This document shows, piece after piece, positions 88 through 29,257 of a stretch of DNA of 40,934 nt. Position 1 is the first letter of the stretch. Every line of letters starts with the position of its first letter. The notes under the pieces were generated by a model. It was given only the letters and a program-made list of their open reading frames with translations. It did no database searches and was not told where the DNA came from. This stretch comes from a virus. Where the stretch lies: the IMG/VR virus record IMGVR_UViG_3300033571_025026, positions 1-40,934 of that record; one strand, given 5' to 3'. A program made the position numbers and the translations under genes.

Positions 88-1715
88 AATTTAAATTGGG
101 AATTGACCTTCGAATTTCTGAGTTGGAGCGTTACAATAAAGCAATGCAGGAGGTTCGTAAAGAAATTGAGAACCTCCACCGAACTGAAACTGAAATTGCA
201 ATAGATCAAGCCACTGAAAAAACAGACGCTTTGCTGGAAGAAAATTCTCGCTTGCAGTCTGAATTGATGTTTTCAATTCAATTCGGAAATAAGCAAGAGC
301 GCGAATTTGCTCAAAAACGCTTGCGTGAATTAATGCAAGAGGAAGTTGAGCTTAACGCAATTCGGATTAGGCAAACAATTGAAGCCGAAAAGAAAGCTGA
401 AGCCGAGCGTGTAAAAACTAGAAAAGAAGCAATTGCAAAAATTCAGACTGAGTTAAAATCTCCTATGCAAAAGGAGATTGATGAAGTTCAAACGCATTAC
501 GCTGAATTAATTGCACTTGCTCAAAAATATGGTATTGACTCATCTGAGTTGGTTAAAAAGCGAGAAGCCTTAATCCTTGGTATAACTAGAGAATATCATA
601 ATCTATCTGAAGATGAGAAAAGAAAACATCTTGAGAAGATCGGCAATTTGATGTCACAGTACACTCAATCTGCGCAAAACATTATTAATCCAATTGTTCA
701 ATTGGTTGGCAATTCAGCAGAAAAGCAAATTGCAGCAATTGAAGATCAAACTCAGAAAAGAGTTGAATCCTTAGATAAACAACGAGATAAAGGAATTGTA
801 AATGAGGAGCAGTACCAAAAGAAAAAATTGGCAATTGAAAAGAAAGCTCAGAAGGAGATTGGAAGACAACGAAGAAAACAGGTAATTGCTGATAGAATTG
901 CCGCCCAAGCACAAGTTGCTTTTTCAACCGCTGAAGCTATTGCCAAAGCATGGGCACAGTCTCCAACTTCTTTCGGTTTGCCTTGGTCTGCAGCAGCTCT
1001 TGTAATGGGTGGACTTCAATCCGCTGCCATCTGGTCAGCTCCAATTCCTGAATTTAGATACGGTGGTGTTTTTGGTGGCGTGCCTGATGGCCCTTCACAT
1101 CAAAACAATGGAATTTCATTAATCAATTCTCAAACCGGTCAAAAGGTTGGAGAAATGGAAGGAGGGGAGCCGTACATGATTCTTTCAAAAGAAATGTACG
1201 GAAACAATCGCGAGCTGATTGATAAATTGCTTCAAATCTCCATGAATGAAGGAGGTAGAAGGTTGACCGTCGATGATTTCTCACCCGTTAATCCTCAAAT
1301 GGATTATCGCGTTGCTTTAAATGCTGGTAGTGGTCGTAGGATTGTAAATCGAACCGCTGAAGGTGCTGGAAGCTCAGGTAGTGGAAGAAATCCTGTTACC
1401 TCAGGTAAAGATCAATCTGCTGAGCTATTTACCATGCTCTTTGAAGAATTGCGCGCATTAAGGGAAGAAAGACAAATTCCGATTCGTGCATATCAGGTAA
1501 TTCGAGACAGCGATGAAACAGCCAAGGAATACGCCAGAATTACACAATTGGCAGCCATCGGGGAAAGCAAAAGTTCTAAGACTACCAAAACAGTTACCAA
1601 AACAAGCTCTTCTGGTTCAGGATCAACTACCATTATAGAAGGCACACCAGGACCGCAAGGACCTGCAGGTGCAAATGGAGCTGGTTTAGGGCTGTTTCAG
1701 TTTCTAAGGTGGTAA
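1..1715 (+). CDS. Phage tail tape-measure protein, C-terminal part (continues from base 40934)
   Basis: This is the continuation of the gene that starts at 38822; codons here begin at base 3. A long charged coiled coil covers roughly bases 60-900. It is followed by an alanine-rich hydrophobic segment (FSTAEAIAKAWAQS ... AAALVMGGLQSAAIW) and a glycine-rich FRYGGVFGG segment, which is how Bacteroidota tape-measure proteins usually end. The last about 60 residues are a Ser/Thr linker and a collagen-like GTPGPQGPAGANGAG run, which is unusual for a tape measure and more like a fibre. The ATG at base 57 looks like a start only because the molecule was cut here. Confidence 0.92.
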   Translation, partial: DENLNGGDGGKGGGGTSTMPGDDEKKKKEFKLGIDLRISELERYNKAMQEVRKEIENLHRTETEIAIDQATEKTDALLEENSRLQSELMFSIQFGNKQEREFAQKRLRELMQEEVELNAIRIRQTIEAEKKAEAERVKTRKEAIAKIQTELKSPMQKEIDEVQTHYAELIALAQKYGIDSSELVKKREALILGITREYHNLSEDEKRKHLEKIGNLMSQYTQSAQNIINPIVQLVGNSAEKQIAAIEDQTQKRVESLDKQRDKGIVNEEQYQKKKLAIEKKAQKEIGRQRRKQVIADRIAAQAQVAFSTAEAIAKAWAQSPTSFGLPWSAAALVMGGLQSAAIWSAPIPEFRYGGVFGGVPDGPSHQNNGISLINSQTGQKVGEMEGGEPYMILSKEMYGNNRELIDKLLQISMNEGGRRLTVDDFSPVNPQMDYRVALNAGSGRRIVNRTAEGAGSSGSGRNPVTSGKDQSAELFTMLFEELRALREERQIPIRAYQVIRDSDETAKEYARITQLAAIGESKSSKTTKTVTKTSSSGSGSTTIIEGTPGPQGPAGANGAGLGLFQFLRW

Positions 1716-1729
1716 ATGAAACGATTTTT

Positions 1730-1767
1730 GTGTCCTTTCTTAGGCGATCGCCTAAGATTAATCTTGC
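1730..1767 (+). promoter_or_regulatory. Putative phage promoter A (TGTCCTTTC class) upstream of tail-fibre genes
   Basis: GTGTCCTTTC at 1730-1739 is followed after 19 bases by TAATCTTGC at 1759-1767, and the next gene starts at 1782. The same pair of boxes occurs at 16404, 27389 and 29221. The downstream box resembles the Bacteroidota TAnnTTTG -7 element; the upstream box is not the usual host -33 element. The whole spacer is filled by an 18-base palindrome. Confidence 0.6.
1739..1756. repeat. Perfect 18-bp palindrome within promoter A
   Basis: CTTAGGCGATCGCCTAAG is a perfect palindrome with the core GGCGATCGCC. It lies between the -33-like and -7-like boxes of promoter A, so it could be an operator. 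The same ten-base core occurs at 24529 (inside another palindrome) and at 29313. Confidence 0.75.
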
Positions 1768-1781
1768 AAAAAGGTTAATCG

Positions 1782-2174
1782 ATGGAAACACCACAATTTG
1801 CATTTACACCAGAAACAGCCATTGTACAATGTACCGGTGCTTACACCGACAGAACAGGAGTTGCGACATCCAACCGTTTTGAACTTCTAACTGCAGCCCC
1901 TGCTGGTACCAAGGTTACTCAAATTGGTGTTAAATCAGTTGGTCAGTCAGGAGCTGGTTCTCTCTTGGTTTTTATCACCGACACAGCAGGAGCTAATCCA
2001 AGATTATTTGATGAAATTTCATATTCAGCAGCAACGCCATCGAATACTCTTCAGTCTGCTAGAAATGTGGCTATTTACGATGATCTTCAGCTAAAATCAG
2101 GACAGAAGATTTTAGTTGGTTGTACTGTTGCCACTTCGGCATTAAATGTTTTTGCGTCAAAAGGAGATTTCTAA
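1782..2174 (+). CDS. Tail-associated structural protein (hypothetical)
   Basis: This 130-residue protein has no signal peptide or membrane segment and is rich in Thr, Ser, Ala and Gly with a beta-strand pattern (GSLLVFITDTAG; GQKILVGCTVATSALNVF), as in small tail-fibre or baseplate accessory proteins. It is the first gene after promoter A, follows the tape-measure gene, and its stop overlaps the next start by one base (TAATG). Position and composition support a virion tail role, perhaps a fibre base or trimerisation domain. I do not recognise a named family. Confidence 0.6.
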   Translation: METPQFAFTPETAIVQCTGAYTDRTGVATSNRFELLTAAPAGTKVTQIGVKSVGQSGAGSLLVFITDTAGANPRLFDEISYSAATPSNTLQSARNVAIYDDLQLKSGQKILVGCTVATSALNVFASKGDF

Positions 2175-2974
2175 TGTTTAAAGGATTTCCAAAACGCGCA
2201 TTTCCTGATAAATCATTTCCGACGGTAAGAATCGGAAACGTTGGAGCAATTAGTGATAATGATGCTCATTTATTCGCTATTAACTTTGGTATTGTAGACG
2301 ATCTTGAAAGACAAGCGATATATTTTTTAGTCCAGGAATTAAAGCGCGCTGGTCTTTGGACTAAAATGAGAGCCATCTATCCATTTCGTGGATCTACGGC
2401 TTTATCGACCTCTGGAAATCTTTGCAATCCAGCAAGATTTAGAATTACTTGGTTGAACTCTCCATTGTTCGCTTACACAGGTGTTCTGTGCAATGGAATA
2501 AACCAATATGGCAACACAGGCTTTGTTCAATCTTCAAATCTTACTGCATCAAATACTTCATTCTCGTTTTACGCTAGAAACAGTGGAGCAGGTGTAGGTA
2601 TTGGTTCTCTATCAGGTGCTGGTCAAACATATATGTTTACTCAGAGTAATGGTGTGGTGATTAACTCTGGTGCGAGTTCTACTTTTGCAAGTGCGCCATC
2701 AAATACGGGATTGTTTCTGTCTTCAAAAGGAGCAAACAATCAGAATCGTGTGTATCACAATGGAGTACTTCGAGCTACGAGTGCTGCAATTGTGGGTTCT
2801 GCAAGCCCCGCAAACATGGCTGTTTTTGCGGTATTAAATAACACCACGCCTGCTCAATTTTGTACTCAAGAAGGATCCTTCGCGCATATCGGTGAAGATT
2901 TAACCGACGATGAGGCGGTTGTGTTTTATTCGATCGTTCAGCAGTATCACCAAATTTTAGGAATAGCCGTATGA
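2174..2974 (+). CDS. Probable tail fibre / receptor-binding protein with lectin-like fold
   Basis: The protein has 266 residues and starts at ATG 2174, which overlaps the previous stop; longer in-frame starts lie inside that gene and are unlikely. The N-terminal 80 residues (VDDLERQAIYFLVQELKRAG, IYPFRGST) look like a particle-attachment region. The rest (FSFYARNSGAGVGIG; NGVVINSGASSTF; NQNRVYHNGVLRATS) has the spacing of concanavalin/LamG-like beta-sandwich modules seen in Bacteroidota phage fibres. The C-terminal DDEAVVFYSIVQQYHQILG helix is also common in such proteins. It is likely to bind the host surface. The fold is inferred from pattern, not alignment. Confidence 0.6.
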   Translation: MFKGFPKRAFPDKSFPTVRIGNVGAISDNDAHLFAINFGIVDDLERQAIYFLVQELKRAGLWTKMRAIYPFRGSTALSTSGNLCNPARFRITWLNSPLFAYTGVLCNGINQYGNTGFVQSSNLTASNTSFSFYARNSGAGVGIGSLSGAGQTYMFTQSNGVVINSGASSTFASAPSNTGLFLSSKGANNQNRVYHNGVLRATSAAIVGSASPANMAVFAVLNNTTPAQFCTQEGSFAHIGEDLTDDEAVVFYSIVQQYHQILGIAV

Positions 2975-3177
2975 TTTGCGCAATTGTTTCCCCTGAGGTG
3001 GCCAATGAGTTCCAGCACTATAAAAAAGGTGTTCACCAAGTAATGTTTCTGGAATTACTTGATGGTTCCTTTGCAGCTCCAATCGCTATGGTAACCATCA
3101 TGCCTGAAGCTTTCCCTAGATTTACCGAAAGGTTTGTTGCTGAAGATGAATTCAAACGAAATGAATTAAAACTCTAA
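2971..3177 (+). CDS. Small tail-operon protein (hypothetical)
   Basis: This 68-residue protein starts four bases before the end of the fibre gene (ATGA overlap), so it is translationally coupled to it. It is predicted to be soluble, with an acidic C-terminus (FVAEDEFKRNELKL). Its position directly behind a putative receptor-binding protein would suit a fibre chaperone or accessory subunit, but nothing in the sequence proves this. It converges with the integrase gene and overlaps its 3' end by 12 bases. Confidence 0.55.
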   Translation: MICAIVSPEVANEFQHYKKGVHQVMFLELLDGSFAAPIAMVTIMPEAFPRFTERFVAEDEFKRNELKL

Positions 3178-4365
3178 TCCAGGCAACTTGGTTTTGATGT
3201 TGTCGTTGTTGAAACAGCCTAAAGATTTAAGATAAGCGTTCGTCGATGCAGGATCTTGATGACCAAGCTGCAATCCAAGTTCTGCTATAGTTAATCCATT
3301 CAAATAACCCATCACCGCGAAGGTGTGGCGCCAAGAATAAAAAGTGTATTGCTTATCGTAGTTTAGTGGGTTGAGTACCTTTTCTCTAAATCTAGAGGCG
3401 ATCTCCTCATCACGAAGTTTTTTCGGACCAGGACGCAGGTTATTTGAAAAAAGGTAGTATTCGCCAGGATATTGTTTGATGTTCATCGCCTTCAGCTCCG
3501 CATCTAGGTTAGGATGAATTACAACTTGACGCATGTGCGAATTCTTTGACCATTTACGGTCAATATGAATCTTATCGTCTGAAGCTTGGTAAATATCCGA
3601 GATCTTGATATTGGCAATCTCAACCGACCTGCAAGATGTATAGTACATGAATCTGCAAGCGAAGCCAATCTGAGGGTGACGCTCTTTCATGTATGACATT
3701 AACTGTGTTTGTTGCTCTGGTGTAAATGCAATATTCCTTCCTCTACCTGGTGATGGTCGATTTACTTTTACCCATGGATTTGTGGCAATGATTTCCATAT
3801 CGGCCATATCAAACCACAAAGTTTTCAATCCATTGATGTGGTTGTTGTGTGATCGAGCGGAAAGACCAACTCCTTGCATAAGAAAGGTCGAATAGTTTAC
3901 CGCATCTATGTACTTGAAATCTTTGATTAACTCATCGTCTCGCTTTTGCGAGTGCATGTATTGCTTGAACTTGTATATGACTTTCAAATATGAAGACTTG
4001 GTGTTTTCCTTCATATTCAGCTTTGTAGTTATTGCAAGATCAAGACACGCGAAGACTGTTGGCTCTGATTCTATTCTTTGCTTTGCAATTTCAGGCTGAA
4101 GAATCTTTTGAAATCCGACATGGTCGGGATCGTACACCGCTCCATGAGTTACCTTAAAGTTGATCTGCCGAATGAGTTCTTCACAGATCAATCTAAACTG
4201 AGGATGATCCTTATACTTGTCAAGATAGACCCTGAAACGTACGATCTTCTTTTGGGGAACAGAATAGGCATGATACTTAATATAGTACCTAGGATTCTTT
4301 GATTTAGGGTCTGAAACGACCAACTGAGCAAGCCTAAATTTGGCAGGTTTTACGTTATCTACCAT
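3166..4365 (-). CDS. int: Tyrosine recombinase (phage integrase)
   Basis: It catalyses site-specific integration and excision. I place the start at 4365 (MVDNVKPAKF, 399 residues). The frame is open further upstream to 4494, but that extension reads through the tRNA-derived attP sequence (NLVRIPLEP) and is unlikely to be coding. An arm-binding N-terminus precedes a SAM-like core-binding domain (NTKSSYLKVIYKFKQYM) and the catalytic domain. The first catalytic Arg is in YTSCRSVEIANI; the box II motif is YSWRHTF, with Tyr where His is common; then LGHQDPASTNAYLKSLG supplies His and the nucleophilic Tyr. It is the leftmost minus-strand gene, next to the attP and the repressor. Confidence 0.93.
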   Translation of the reverse strand: MVDNVKPAKFRLAQLVVSDPKSKNPRYYIKYHAYSVPQKKIVRFRVYLDKYKDHPQFRLICEELIRQINFKVTHGAVYDPDHVGFQKILQPEIAKQRIESEPTVFACLDLAITTKLNMKENTKSSYLKVIYKFKQYMHSQKRDDELIKDFKYIDAVNYSTFLMQGVGLSARSHNNHINGLKTLWFDMADMEIIATNPWVKVNRPSPGRGRNIAFTPEQQTQLMSYMKERHPQIGFACRFMYYTSCRSVEIANIKISDIYQASDDKIHIDRKWSKNSHMRQVVIHPNLDAELKAMNIKQYPGEYYLFSNNLRPGPKKLRDEEIASRFREKVLNPLNYDKQYTFYSWRHTFAVMGYLNGLTIAELGLQLGHQDPASTNAYLKSLGCFNNDNIKTKLPGLEF

Positions 4366-20346: not shown

Positions 20347-20377
20347 AAACCCAGTTGCCATTTGGTAGCTGGGTTTT
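20347..20377 (+). terminator. Intrinsic terminator after tail-tube gene
   Basis: AAACCCAGTTGCC (20347-20359) pairs with GGTAGCTGGGTTT (20364-20376) across a four-base loop with two G-U pairs, and runs into TTTTT. It closes the head and tube transcription unit that starts at promoter B. Confidence 0.9.
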
Positions 20378-20390
20378 TGTATTTTTGCCC

Positions 20391-20489
20391 TGCGACATCA
20401 TCTACAATTAACTTCAAAACACTGCCCTTGGGCTCAGTGATTGTAGGTGATGTCGCAATTGCTTCAATTACGGCCCAAGGGCATTTTTT
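20391..20489 (+). promoter_or_regulatory. Structured leader 1: A-B-A'-B' stems ending in T6 before a start codon
   Basis: Stem A, TGCGACATCATCTACAAT (20391-20408), pairs with A' (20440-20457), 18 bp with one G-U. Stem B, TGCCCTTGGGC (20423-20433), pairs perfectly with B' GCCCAAGGGCA (20473-20483), which is followed by TTTTTT and the ATG at 20490. B lies in the loop of A, so the stems form a pseudoknot or exclude each other. B-B' with its T-run looks like a terminator and A-A' like a competing stem. Confidence 0.7.
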
Positions 20490-20726
20490 ATGGAGGAAAA
20501 CCCAGAATTAAAACAAAAAGTGGTTCAGTTTATTCGCAGATACCACGGCGCACCGGCTAATAATTGCCAGGAGTTTTTCTCTATTTCCAAATGGCAAGAG
20601 CTGATTCAATCAGGGACTGGTATTTTTTGTCTAGAAATAGACATCATTGAATACTTGGAAGAATTATCATTCAATTCCACAATGATCGACGGCGAATTAA
20701 TGTTCCCCGTTAAAGTCCTTTCTTAA
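20490..20726 (+). CDS. Small protein under structured leader (hypothetical)
   Basis: The protein has 78 residues and starts directly after the T6 tract of the leader, so its translation should respond to the folding of that leader. The sequence (LKQKVVQFIRRYHGAPANNC; EFFSISKWQELIQSGTGIFC; LEIDIIEYLEELSFNSTMID) has two cysteines and an alpha/beta pattern. No family is recognised. It is the first gene of the terminase region. Confidence 0.6.
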   Translation: MEENPELKQKVVQFIRRYHGAPANNCQEFFSISKWQELIQSGTGIFCLEIDIIEYLEELSFNSTMIDGELMFPVKVLS

Positions 20727-22234: not shown

Positions 22235-22826
22235 ATTATTACCTGACAGCCTCAAACAAATGGAACGTATTTACGATTTCATTTCTCAAAAGGCTGGGGT
22301 AACGCTTTCTCAGGACGAACAAAACGTTTTAGAGCGCTGCAATTTTGCGGACAATGCTTTGCGTAATCGTCACAGCGATGCTGCTGTTATGGATATGCTT
22401 ATGCAACGCTTTGGTGTATCTAAATCAACCGCCTACAGCGACATTGCGACCGCCAAGTATGTATTTAATTCTCTTTCAATAAATGATAAGCCATATGGCT
22501 TGAAATTGCTTTTGGATATCAACATGAAATGCATCGATAAATGCATTTTAAAAGGTGACTATAAAACTGCAGGAGCTTTGCAGGAAACACGTTTGAAGCT
22601 TCTGGACCGAATCAATGAAACTGTTGATCCTAATTTGGATGATAACAACACACCTTCGGTATTCATCATGAACGTACGTGTTGCCGCAACAGGCAGACCT
22701 AGAGCAATTGATTTACAAAAAGGAATTACAGATCTATCTGATGAAGAAATTGAATTGATTCAGCAAAACGCGAATCAATTCTTCCTTCCGGAAAACCTTC
22801 CCGATTTTTTAAGAACCGATGAGTAA
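22221..22826 (+). CDS. Probable terminase small subunit
   Basis: I choose ATG 22221 (MRLHKLLPDSLKQMERIY, 201 residues); the longer frame from 22188 lies in the previous gene. Residues about 47-85 (NRHSDAAVMDMLMQRFGVSK, STAYSDIATAKYVF) form a clear helix-turn-helix. The middle (INMKCIDKCILKGDYKTAGAL) resembles the oligomerisation region of small terminases. It ends 8 bases inside the large-subunit gene, the usual neighbour. The small subunit recognises the packaging start site on phage DNA. Confidence 0.7.
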   Translation: MRLHKLLPDSLKQMERIYDFISQKAGVTLSQDEQNVLERCNFADNALRNRHSDAAVMDMLMQRFGVSKSTAYSDIATAKYVFNSLSINDKPYGLKLLLDINMKCIDKCILKGDYKTAGALQETRLKLLDRINETVDPNLDDNNTPSVFIMNVRVAATGRPRAIDLQKGITDLSDEEIELIQQNANQFFLPENLPDFLRTDE

Positions 22827-24468
22827 TTACATTCCATTACGTTTTAATCGCTTTCAGCTATTTGCACACCTGAATTTTGCCAACCGAAATAGGCTCATTG
22901 GTAGCCGTGGTATTGGTAAAACAACATTGCTTGGTTGGATTATCAAAAACGTAGTGGAAGACATGCCACGTTCTGCAAATGCCTTGGTTGCTCGAACTTA
23001 CATTCAAGCATTAACCAGGACAATCCCTGCAGTAATTGGCGGCCTTGAAACTTTCAATTACAAAATGGGGCGTGACTATGTTATCGGCAAGGAGCCGCCT
23101 AAGGCATGGCCAAGACCATACTTTCCACCGGTGAGCTTTGAGCACTTCATTTCATTTCGCAATGGTTCTGGTTACCACATCGTAAGTCAGGATAGAGCTG
23201 GATCTTCACGTGGTTTTAATCTTGACAGCTACATTGGAGATGAAGGGTTGAATCTTATCAAGCAGAGACTCGATGATGAAGTTTCTGTTGCTAACCGCGC
23301 CAATGTTGGGCGCTTTAGTTATTCCAGGTATCACCTCTCTGAAACAATTGTTTCATCTCAACCCATTCTACCCGAAAGTAAATGGTTGCTTGAAGATTCA
23401 GAGTATTACAAAGTCAATGGAACTCCTTATGAAGAATATCGTGATTCTTTGACCGATATTCTAATTGATTTGGTGGATGCAGAAACTGAGGAAGAAATGC
23501 AGTTTCATTGGAAGAAAGCCTATGAAATTAAAATGCGCTGGAAATTCTATAAGAATTACCAAACCATCCCTGTAACCAATCAAAAGATTTCTACGCACTT
23601 TCTCGATGGTGACATCTTCGACAATATCCAGAATTTGGGCTGGAAGTACATCAAACAACAGCGCGCTTCAATGAATGATCTCAACTTCAGAGTTGAGATC
23701 TTAAATGGTATTTACACCATGAGCGAGCAAGGATTTTACCCAGATCTTTGTGAACGTCATCTTTACGATACAAGCGACTACTCAATCCTAGATAAATTCG
23801 GCTATTCGATAACCTCCGAAGGGGAGCTTAATTCTACACATGATCCATCAATTGAGCCTTCAATGCCACTGCATATTGCTTGTGATTATGGTGGATCTTT
23901 CAACTGTATGGTGGTAAGCCAGGAGTATGAAGATGAAGAAAGGTTTGTGGCATCATTCCATGAATACCATCCCAATAAGATCAGCCATGTGGTAGCGCAA
24001 TTCACCAAGTTCTTTGCGCACCACCGTAACCGTGATGTGTACTTCTGGCATGATCAAACGGCCATTGGAACAAGCGGATTGGTTGATTTTAATTACGCTG
24101 ATGAAGTTATTTCGATACTCAGAAAAGCGGGTTGGAATGTTATTGTCATGTACATGGGAGCAGCACCAACACATTACCTGAAGTATCTGTTCATGGGTAA
24201 TATCCTTTCTGAACGTGATACGCGCAAACTTCCACGGGTTCGCATGCACCGTGAACGCTGCAAGCCTTTGTACAACTCAATGAAGCTGGTAGCAATCAAG
24301 CAGACATCAAAGGGCATGGAGAAGGACAAGACACCAGAGAAGAAGCAAGCAGTAGATCAGGTGAAAGCGCCACACCTAAGTGATGCTGCTGATCAGCTAT
24401 TGTATTTCAAGTATTCAGACAAGCAGATAGATCGACCACGTAAGGTCTCCAAGATGATCATATCGTAG
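22819..24468 (+). CDS. terL: Terminase large subunit
   Basis: The protein has 549 residues and is the packaging motor and nuclease. The N-terminal ATPase has Walker A GSRGIGKTT near residues 28-36 and a Walker B-like YIGDEGL near 137. The C-terminal RNase H-like nuclease shows its acidic sites at IACDYGGSFN near 352, FWHDQTAIG near 408, and HLSDAADQLLYF near 524. The order is standard for large terminases. It is preceded by two helix-turn-helix genes and followed by a terminator. Confidence 0.93.
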   Translation: MSNYIPLRFNRFQLFAHLNFANRNRLIGSRGIGKTTLLGWIIKNVVEDMPRSANALVARTYIQALTRTIPAVIGGLETFNYKMGRDYVIGKEPPKAWPRPYFPPVSFEHFISFRNGSGYHIVSQDRAGSSRGFNLDSYIGDEGLNLIKQRLDDEVSVANRANVGRFSYSRYHLSETIVSSQPILPESKWLLEDSEYYKVNGTPYEEYRDSLTDILIDLVDAETEEEMQFHWKKAYEIKMRWKFYKNYQTIPVTNQKISTHFLDGDIFDNIQNLGWKYIKQQRASMNDLNFRVEILNGIYTMSEQGFYPDLCERHLYDTSDYSILDKFGYSITSEGELNSTHDPSIEPSMPLHIACDYGGSFNCMVVSQEYEDEERFVASFHEYHPNKISHVVAQFTKFFAHHRNRDVYFWHDQTAIGTSGLVDFNYADEVISILRKAGWNVIVMYMGAAPTHYLKYLFMGNILSERDTRKLPRVRMHRERCKPLYNSMKLVAIKQTSKGMEKDKTPEKKQAVDQVKAPHLSDAADQLLYFKYSDKQIDRPRKVSKMIIS

Positions 24469-26602: not shown

Positions 26603-26984
26603 AGTTTAATTTTTAAGTTAATTTGATTGCATAGATAGGTAGGGAATGCTGATTTTGCAACTTGGAAATGCTTTTTTCGACAATAATAATCCTTCAAATA
26701 GCAAAAGTTTGGGGGTATTTTCACATGAAAGTTGTTATGCGATTGTCTACTTTTACACCGCGACATCACCGAAATCAACCATTGAGCGCATAACATATGT
26801 TATGTGCTCATTTTTTCGTCGTTCGGTTTGGAAAGTTGGAAATTTTTGTACGTTTGAAGTGCTGAAGTAACCATAATGTATCCAATCTTTTACAAACCGA
26901 ATTGCCAGGTGAGCGTTTTAGAAACGCAACTCCAAGCATTATGCTCTGACTTCAGCAGCACCTGGCAATACTTTTTTTCTACAC
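26603..26984. promoter_or_regulatory. Non-coding spacer with two structured leaders
   Basis: These 382 bases lie between the leftward SHOCT gene and the rightward gene at 26985. They contain an attenuator-like set at 26734-26816 and an A-B-A'-B' set at 26901-26997, listed separately. A 74-residue plus-strand frame here (26646-26870) has no protein-like pattern and is not kept. No other RNA gene is recognised. Confidence 0.6.
26734..26816 (+). promoter_or_regulatory. Attenuator-like leader 2 (terminator with competing stem)
   Basis: A terminator hairpin joins GAGCGCATAAC (26784-26794) to GTTATGTGCTC (26799-26809), one G-U, followed by T6. Upstream, GTTATGCG (26734-26741) can pair with CGCATAAC (26787-26794), the hairpin's left arm, and would prevent it. 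GCGACATCACC lies between them at 26760-26770. Confidence 0.6.
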
Positions 26985-26997
26985 ATGCTGAAGTCAG
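26901..26997 (+). promoter_or_regulatory. Structured leader 3: A-B-A'-B' stems covering a start codon
   Basis: A, ATTGCCAGGTG (26901-26911), pairs perfectly with A' CACCTGGCAAT (26959-26969), which is followed by T7: a terminator. B, CTGACTTCAGCA (26946-26957), pairs perfectly over 12 bp with B' TGCTGAAGTCAG (26986-26997), which covers the ATG at 26985. A small hairpin (GCGTTT/AAACGC, 26913-26927) sits in the A loop. The two long stems interlock as in leader 1. Confidence 0.7.
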
Positions 26998-27323
26998 AAA
27001 AAACACAAACCAAGGAGGAGCGCCATGCTCTTGAGTTAATCATTAAAGATAAACTCTACGAAACATTTTTTTTACAACGTGACATGGATATGGTTTACCC
27101 ATACCTGAATCAACTTTGTCAAAACTCGATCTTTCAACTTGCACAGGAAGATTCAACATTATCACCTTACGCTGTTGAATTTTTGCTAGATCTCAAGGAA
27201 ACAATCATGAGTATTGCAATCATGACCGGTGAAACAAAAGGTATCACTGCCTTTGACCACCAGAACATTCTTAAGCGCTTTCTTGATAACGTCAAGCAAA
27301 TCGAAAAAACTAAAAGAGAGTAA
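26985..27323 (+). CDS. Small protein under structured leader 3 (hypothetical)
   Basis: The protein has 112 residues and is mostly helical (LELIIKDKLYETFFLQRDMD; PYAVEFLLDLKETIMSIAIM; HQNILKRFLDNVKQIEKTKR). It has no membrane helix. Its first four codons form one arm of a 12-bp stem, so its translation is likely controlled by the leader. The gene is followed by a GCGACATCACC copy and a terminator. No family is recognised. Confidence 0.6.
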   Translation: MLKSEKTQTKEERHALELIIKDKLYETFFLQRDMDMVYPYLNQLCQNSIFQLAQEDSTLSPYAVEFLLDLKETIMSIAIMTGETKGITAFDHQNILKRFLDNVKQIEKTKRE

Positions 27324-27341
27324 TTGCGACATCACCTACAA
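27322..27341 (+). repeat. 20-base repeat unit, copy also at 20441-20460 (opposite strand)
   Basis: AATTGCGACATCACCTACAA at 27322-27341 is identical to the minus strand of 20441-20460, which is the A' arm of leader 1. Related forms occur at 20391 (GCGACATCATCTACAA) and 26760 (GCGACATCACCGA). Confidence 0.75.
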
Positions 27342-27362: not shown

Positions 27363-27388
27363 AGCCTCGATTTATCGGGGCTTTTTTT
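27363..27388 (+). terminator. Intrinsic terminator before promoter C
   Basis: AGCCTCGAT (27363-27371) pairs with ATCGGGGCT (27374-27382), one G-U, two-base loop, and runs into T7. Promoter C begins at the next base. Confidence 0.85.
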
Positions 27389-27426
27389 ATGTCCTTTCCT
27401 GTTCATTTTGCCAGCTCTAATATTGC
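27389..27426 (+). promoter_or_regulatory. Putative phage promoter C (TGTCCTTTC class) upstream of PAS cargo unit
   Basis: ATGTCCTTTC at 27389-27398 is followed after 19 bases by TAATATTGC at 27418-27426; the gene starts at 27437. It follows a terminator with no gap, as promoter D does. It overlaps an upstream ATG, which is therefore not used as the gene start. Confidence 0.55.
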
Positions 27427-27436
27427 TTCGACTATT

Positions 27437-28003
27437 ATGCACGAAGTAGAATCTTTACGGAATCTTGATGTTTACCACGGCATCATCTGCTTTATCCTAG
27501 ATGATGATGGTACCGTCATTTTCGGAAACCGTCGCTTCGAATCGCTTTTCAAAAATGCTTTAGGCAGCCACTTTCAAAAAAATCTGCATACCACTTCCAG
27601 AGCTTCATGGTTTAAACTGACTGAAAAGTGCATGCAATTCCCAAATACACTATTCGAGGATAATGTACTTGCACTTTGTACCGGCCATGTTTATGAAAAA
27701 ATCGATTTTGAGATTTACTTCAGAGAAGGAAAGTTCGGGATAGTTGGTTATAAAAGAGTGGATCCAAACAAACCAACTGAAGGCATATCATTTTTGGAAG
27801 AAAGAATGCGAGAAATCGCCTTTTTCCAAAATCATGAATTTCGACCGCCAGTTGCAAGAATCTTAGGAGTCTCAAGTCTTTCTATTGCCTCTAATGACCT
27901 GGGAGAATTGAAAAACTATGCCCTTCTGATGCGAAAAGATGCTGAACAACTCGATGAATTCATCAAGAAAATCACCGCTTTAACCAATGTTTCCAATGGA
28001 TAA
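27437..28003 (+). CDS. PAS-HisKA protein lacking a kinase ATPase domain
   Basis: I choose ATG 27437 (MHEVESLRNLDVYHGIIC, 188 residues) because the ATG 27389 coincides with the promoter. Residues 1-110 look like a PAS sensor (GIICFILDDDGTVIFGNRRF, then LFEDN, FEIYFREGKFGIVGYKRV). Residues about 122-185 form a HisKA dimerisation domain with H-box FFQNHEFRPPVARILG (His133), followed by a second helix with RKDAEQLDEFIKKITALT. No HATPase domain (N, G1, G2 boxes) follows. It could accept or remove phosphate from host kinases or regulators. It heads a four-gene cargo unit. Confidence 0.75.
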   Translation: MHEVESLRNLDVYHGIICFILDDDGTVIFGNRRFESLFKNALGSHFQKNLHTTSRASWFKLTEKCMQFPNTLFEDNVLALCTGHVYEKIDFEIYFREGKFGIVGYKRVDPNKPTEGISFLEERMREIAFFQNHEFRPPVARILGVSSLSIASNDLGELKNYALLMRKDAEQLDEFIKKITALTNVSNG

Positions 28004-29193: not shown

Positions 29194-29220
29194 AAGCCCT
29201 GATTGTCTAGGGCTTTTTTT
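29193..29220 (+). terminator. Intrinsic terminator at end of cargo unit
   Basis: AAAGCCCT (29193-29200) pairs perfectly with AGGGCTTT (29209-29216) and runs into T7. It is directly followed by promoter D. Confidence 0.85.
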
Positions 29221-29257
29221 GTGTCCTTTCCTAGCTGTTTTGCTCCAATGATCTTTG
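29221..29257 (+). promoter_or_regulatory. Putative phage promoter D (TGTCCTTTC class) upstream of portal/tail genes
   Basis: GTGTCCTTTC at 29221-29230 is followed after 18 bases by TGATCTTTG at 29249-29257; the next gene starts at 29262. It probably drives the long portal, lysis and tail operon up to the tape measure. Confidence 0.6.

Follow-up and report, generated by a model that had tools for sequence, protein, structure and literature searches.

A proposed 5′-terminal pseudoknot and start-codon switch in mRNA leaders of Bacteroidota-type phages

In c4, a processed, trans-acting RNA, a phage leader carries the complement of a downstream translation start. The c4 antisense RNA of phages P1 and P7 is Rfam family RF01695, listed in PMC2864571. 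The timP mRNA leader of the timPR type I toxin–antitoxin system adopts mutually exclusive conformations, of which the translated one needs a pseudoknot with far-upstream sequence (PMC11228461). Toxin mRNAs of the hok and aapA type carry metastable 5′ structures, and the order of co-transcriptional folding decides access to the initiation region (PMC6733600). The leader pseudoknot of T4 gene 32 controls translation and nucleates binding of the gene's own product (PMC535899, PMC3014915). In Bacteroidota, translation initiates without Shine–Dalgarno pairing, and structure at the start codon tunes initiation (PMC6847099).

Here we describe a leader, W2, that precedes a 112-aa ORF in a 40,934-base virus contig (the window, meaning the whole stretch of DNA analysed), together with its sister leader, W1, at 20391 (Table 1). 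W2 resembles timP in its mutually exclusive mRNA shapes and in a proposed translated form with a pseudoknot, and timP, with the type I toxin mRNAs, is closest to it in function. However, timP encodes a small toxin and has an antisense RNA as its partner, whereas the W2 gene encodes a 112-aa protein in a phage operon; moreover, the upstream arm of W2 is the predicted RNA 5′ end and is copied on the start codon, unlike that of timP. As in the hok/aapA type, folding order would decide whether the initiation region is free, but metastable hairpins block early translation in those mRNAs, whereas early A1:A′ pairing in W2 would leave the start free. The 112-aa protein is charged (MLKSEKTQTKEERH...) with no obvious membrane segment, as judged by eye from its sequence, and so does not look like a small hydrophobic toxin of the hok/aapA/timP kind.

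W2 shares with c4 the complementarity of a phage leader RNA to a downstream translation start; unlike c4, it lies in a window without an Rfam match, and the host phylum differs. As proposed here, it would share with T4 gene 32 a pseudoknot in a phage mRNA leader and translation control, but the gene 32 leader has no start-codon copy of its 5′ end. We file the W2 leader under none of timP, the type I toxin mRNAs and c4. Neither the window nor 15 related loci matched any Rfam 15 family at the gathering score, the c4 model RF01695 included, and an E-value search returned only sub-threshold, chance-level matches. No such design was found in Rfam or in the part of the literature that was searched; it may have been mentioned before, for example among the human-microbiome candidate RNAs of PMC8040213.

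An 87-nt direct repeat occurs at both ends of the window, which thus reads as a complete circular phage genome. Its TerL (22819–24468) is 33% identical to TerL of Microcystis phage Mea-Yong924-1, and other TerL relatives belong to phages of Polaribacter, Flavobacterium and Cellulophaga. Promoters in the window match TTTG/TAnnTTTG, the Bacteroidota consensus at about −33 and −7 (PMC6847099, PMC7366714). The window is a Bacteroidota-type siphophage genome. The Microcystis phage (L002, MZ447863) likewise carries Bacteroidota-type promoters and has TerL relatives among Bacteroidota phages, and a Bacteroidota bacterium that accompanies Microcystis may be its true host. To our knowledge, the timing of gene expression by Bacteroidota phages has been little studied. 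A TGTCCTTTCC-like motif, present also in Polaribacter phage Leef_1, lies directly 3′ of terminators in the window (1725–1743, 27384–27402 and 29216–29234) and at L004:6628, and is perhaps a phage-type promoter.

The W2 promoter is a match to the Bacteroidota primary-sigma form, TTTG-N18-TACGTTTG (26827–26856). Behind it the words run in the order A1-B-A′-B′-A2, with A1 within 2–5 nt of TAnnTTTG and followed by interlocked B, A′ and B′, the arrangement that defines the leader family. The A1 word, TGCTGAAGT, recurs within A2, right after the first base of the start codon (ATG, 26985), and A′ lies between the two copies; the 13-bp A′:A2 pairing ranked 0 among 17 start-region swaps.

An interlock scan returned both W2 interlocks, at 26860–26969 and 26901–26998. 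The second had been described in the initial annotation as an 11-bp perfect stem followed by T7 and interlocked with a perfect stem over the start codon. The first stem is present as claimed (ATTGCCAGGTG/CACCTGGCAAT, with AC before T7), and the arms follow the claimed A-B-A′-B′ order (our B, A′, B′ and A2) without overlap. The second stem does cover the start codon, beginning one base into the ATG, although it has 13 bp and not 12. The claimed likeness to the leader at 20391, the same order with zero sequence identity, was confirmed. The annotation lacked the promoter match and the third interlocking arm, A1; because both fall outside its coordinates, it missed the competition of A1 and A2 for A′, which is the competition that recurs across phages.

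Table 1. Features of the W1 and W2 leaders and of the genes behind them
Feature	Positions	Strand	Sequence and remarks
W1 −7 element	20380–20387	+	TATTTTTG; with TTTG at 20361
W1 A1	20391–20410	+	
W1 B	20423–20433	+	TGCCCTTGGGC
W1 A′	20437–20456	+	
W1 B′	20473–20483	+	T6 and then ATG (20490) on its 3′ side; lacks an A2 copy
78-aa ORF under W1	20490–20726	+	first gene ahead of the packaging genes; syntenic with L002:9613–9885
Intrinsic-terminator-like hairpin and T-run, upstream of W2 promoter	26783–26816	+	12-pair hairpin 26783–26810, T-run to 26816
W2 promoter −33 element	26827–26830	+	TTTG; 18-nt spacer to −7 element
W2 promoter −7 element	26849–26856	+	TACGTTTG; exact TAnnTTTG match
W2 A1	26860–26868	+	TGCTGAAGT; predicted RNA 5′ end; complements A′; 3 nt after −7 element, likewise in relatives
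W2 A1-hairpin inner extension, 5′ arm	26872–26879	+	CATAATGT; pairs with 26936–26943 (constrained fold)
W2 B	26901–26911	+	ATTGCCAGGTG; 5′ arm of the first annotated stem
W2 small hairpin	26913–26927	+	GCGTTT-tag-AAACGC; between B and A′
W2 A1-hairpin inner extension, 3′ arm	26936–26943	+	GCATTATG (constrained fold)
W2 A′	26945–26957	+	TCTGACTTCAGCA; pairs either A1 (9 bp) or A2 (13 bp)
W2 B′	26959–26969	+	CACCTGGCAAT; 3′ arm of the first annotated stem; 1 nt past A′
W2 T7 run	26972–26978	+	3′ of B′
112-aa ORF under W2	26985–27323	+	putatively leader-controlled
W2 A2	26986–26998	+	TGCTGAAGTCAGA; A1 copy on start codon; complements A′

We propose, as the probable reading, that W2 combines a 5′-terminal pseudoknot with a start-codon switch, in which A1:A′ is the open state and A′:A2 the closed one. 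Transcription would begin at or beside A1, 3 nt past TAnnTTTG, giving a leader of ~125 nt (26860–26985). Stacked as a pseudoknot, A1:A′ and B:B′ would leave the start codon free; A2, the A1 copy on the start codon, would rival A1 for A′, and A′:A2 would cover the start codon and block translation. Such a block is consistent with the effect of start-region structure on initiation in Flavobacterium johnsoniae (PMC6847099). The A′:A2 helix (13 bp) would exceed A1:A′ (9 bp) in length yet form later in transcription, so that newly transcribed RNA would start out open and shut afterwards, provided that neither the B:B′ pseudoknot nor a factor keeps A1:A′ paired. The trigger could be the passage of time, loss of the 5′ end, a protein or a second RNA.

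To place W2 among related leaders, relative loci were gathered by TerL-based scans of viral contigs. Under a relaxed criterion (A1 2–5 nt after TAnnTTTG plus an interlocked B), the promoter-A1-B-A′-B′ design gave 34 unique matches at 1861 TAnnTTTG sites versus 2–7 at nine control motifs (740–3584 sites). In Mea-Yong924-1, the leader of the syntenic small gene has A-B-A′-B′ directly after a terminator and TATCTTTG, and shows no sequence identity to the window leader at 20391. No homologue of W2 was found by DNA similarity, and its family membership therefore rests on architecture.

Because the detection thresholds had been chosen and fixed on the first data set, later data were taken as a fresh test. 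The fresh set of 26 genome-contig loci, searched for A1/A′/A2 with 7-letter words, yielded seven matches; six have the predicted form, with A2 from the start codon (L268, L269, L275 twice, L282 and L285), and the seventh is chance-like. L268 (Galbibacter marinus ck-I2-15, leader at L268:10393) carries the same leader as L146 and hence is not independent, leaving five new leaders, including one in a prophage-like locus of Polaribacter sp. MSW5 (L285:6458) and two from a Crocinitomix bin. In another of the scans, some control motifs (AT.TTTG, TT.TTTG) overlap true promoter sites, so its background is overstated.

Iteron-like interlocked matches (GTTGGAAC, GTGCTAAC, AGTCCAAA) were set aside because they resemble replication-origin repeats. 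Dense repeats of this kind, AGTCCCA included, occur in related phages (L017:3657, L019:3066, L040:3409, L050:2004, L053:3186, L062:3920 and L075:1231) and are probably replication origins. Ribozyme and HDV-like readings were dropped because the 5′ end coincides with the promoter start, the stems are too long and there is no matching core.

The start-codon copy was assessed in 18 leaders that precede a gene. A′:start-region pairing summed to 193, versus 129 expected when start regions were swapped (0 of 20,000 permutations). Ten leaders stand out individually (W2, L003, L028, L047, L057, L064, L067, L068, L082 and L102), and A2 is absent in 8 of the 18, W1 among them. Further A2 leaders are L075, L146, L154, L156, L170 and L193, and cultured Flavobacterium phages (2A, FPSV-D15, D35 and F7) have them as well.

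The strongest evidence for A2, at the level of sequence comparison, comes from seven orthologous leaders (L008, L009, L010, L011, L201, L207 and L208). They carry seven different A words of 17–23 nt, and in all of them A′ is a perfect complement of A2, with a near-copy of A2 behind the promoter. A single compensatory change, made in all three words, separates L067 from L068 (A1 GCTTAT/GCTAAC, A′ GTAAGC/GTTAGC, A2 GCTTAC/GCTAAC). Since the words recur near promoters in both orientations, they could instead be DNA-level inverted repeats, for example operators for a phage regulator, with RNA pairing incidental. However, orthologous leaders swap the word completely while complementarity is kept, and B:B′ covaries as well; such change of words under constant pairing argues against a protein site, which would preserve sequence, and makes this account highly improbable.

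Covariation of B:B′ across seven related leaders reached 0.397, whereas slid controls did not exceed 0.137 (0 of 500 shuffles), and it includes the GGTG:CACC-like end that adjoins A′. Whole-leader MAFFT alignments misplace A1 because the A words change; accordingly, only the B:B′ columns of alignment A12 were counted and the A1-column tally was discarded. The gap between A′ and B′ is 0–3 nt in many members, and the arms never have bases in common. As A′ and B′ abut, the A1:A′ and B:B′ helices can stack as one pseudoknot, and from this geometry we infer that they coexist as coaxial helices whose junction holds the RNA 5′ end.

A pseudoknot of this shape might serve simply as 5′-end protection, hiding that end and making the mRNA more stable, with the start-codon copies of secondary importance. 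This would fit the placement of A1 in every member detected, 2–5 nt behind the promoter element, the abutting A′ and B′ in many, and the existence of members without A2 or without a downstream gene; yet it leaves unexplained why A2 is an A1 copy in many unrelated leaders, and we regard it as quite improbable.

Turning to the folding of W2, interlocked pairs with both stems of at least 11 bp occurred once in 200 dinucleotide-preserving shuffles of the genome and once in the real genome, so the W2 interlock is unlikely to have arisen by chance. The RNA of 26895–26980 folded with z = −3.8. Forced-helix folds of 26860–27030 gave −38.0 kcal/mol for A1:A′, −35.1 for B:B′ and −38.5 for A′:A2 (a span of 3.4 kcal/mol), energies that come from nested folds, which treat A1:A′ and B:B′ as exclusive and contain no pseudoknot term. 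In prefix folding A1:A′ formed earliest, B:B′ next and A′:A2 last. On these models W2 may be poised, opening first and closing later. Over a shorter stretch in 15 leaders, the closed state was favoured in W2, L057, L156 and L193 (by −3 to −7 kcal/mol) and the open state in the remaining eleven. As the open state is more stable in most A2 members, a timer is not a general rule of the family.

The same region could be read as a transcription attenuator, with B:B′ and T7 forming a terminator, the start-codon stem an antiterminator, and termination and translation controlled jointly. The 11-bp B:B′ stem followed by T7 has the form of a terminator stem, B:B′ prevails in prefix folding just after the T-run is synthesised, and W1 likewise has B′ and T6. 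We nevertheless consider an attenuator unlikely. Among 22 family members, 10 carry a T-run of at least five after B′, short of a conserved terminator, and the B:B′ loop is long (47 nt). Furthermore, B:B′ and A′:A2 have no common bases, so that they interlock as a pseudoknot and do not compete for the same bases, unlike the mutually exclusive helices of classical attenuators. Of the dual control predicted in the initial annotation, the translational part is well supported, the start region complementing A′ in many relatives, and the termination part weakly; given how few members have the T-run, start-codon control is the better supported.

Related RNAs also occur on their own. In flavobacterial phages, a free-standing RNA of ~130 nt has no same-strand gene after it (L015:13858, L022:13676, L023:13246, L024:5431, L026:13595, L039:12272, L097:11444, L099:3875, L103:8508, L106:11249 and, on the minus strand, L115:3463, L120:5581, L121:5581 and L123:5763). 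Its A1 often starts with TCTCAC, its loop GAAGgCTTATgTCCTCC pairs with a downstream GGGGGAC, and an N6/N4 DNA methylase gene adjoins it at both loci tested for that gene (L022 and L024). The free-standing RNAs suggest either a further role for the pseudoknot, besides the start-codon switch, or trans action by some copies.

Within the window, the W1 A1 word GCGACATCACC recurs at 26760–26816, after a promoter-like TACTTTTA and before the terminator, and a ~57-nt RNA from this segment is possible. The word also lies in the 3′ UTR behind the 112-aa ORF (27319–27341), with 22 of 23 nt there complementing 20441–20463, making trans pairing between the W1 and 112-aa-gene operons possible.

A short terminated RNA carrying A′ could be an antisense repressor of A2 on the full-length mRNA, in the manner of P1 c4. 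In support of this, A′ complements the start region without a mismatch both in W2 and in the L008–L011 group, the related RNA stands alone with no gene after it in flavobacterial relatives, and the W1 A1 word is found at 26760 and 27326, the latter with the near-perfect complementarity to W1 noted above. However, many members have no terminator after B′, and A1 would be without a role in such a model and yet is kept at the start site. We therefore judge trans repression to be an unlikely account of the leader, and continue to favour the start-codon switch.

The predicted start of the 112-aa ORF at 26985 is backed mainly by the position of A2, which is common to relatives. Pfam assigned no family to either window gene (112-aa or 78-aa), and PHROGs gave only weak matches for the 112-aa protein and nothing convincing for ten small genes downstream of leaders. 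Homologues of the 112-aa protein were found neither by pattern plus tblastn nor by tblastn in phages. A neighbouring 204-aa ORF (27389–28003) contains HEFRPPVARILG, which resembles a histidine-kinase phospho-acceptor box, lacks the ATPase part and has no Pfam match.

Beyond W2 itself, we tentatively suggest that these leaders are a widespread, undescribed phage class in which the 5′-terminal word acts as a decoy for the start codon, and the integrity of the 5′ end, or the age of the RNA, gates translation. While the 5′ end is locked in the pseudoknot, the start would be open; once the 5′ end is lost or displaced, A′ would take the start codon and translation would be switched off. Cultured Flavobacterium phages and a Polaribacter genome carry leaders of this kind. 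A leader class with three-way covariation among the RNA 5′ end, its complement and the start codon would be a general control device, and would offer a ready-made expression switch for engineering Bacteroidota.
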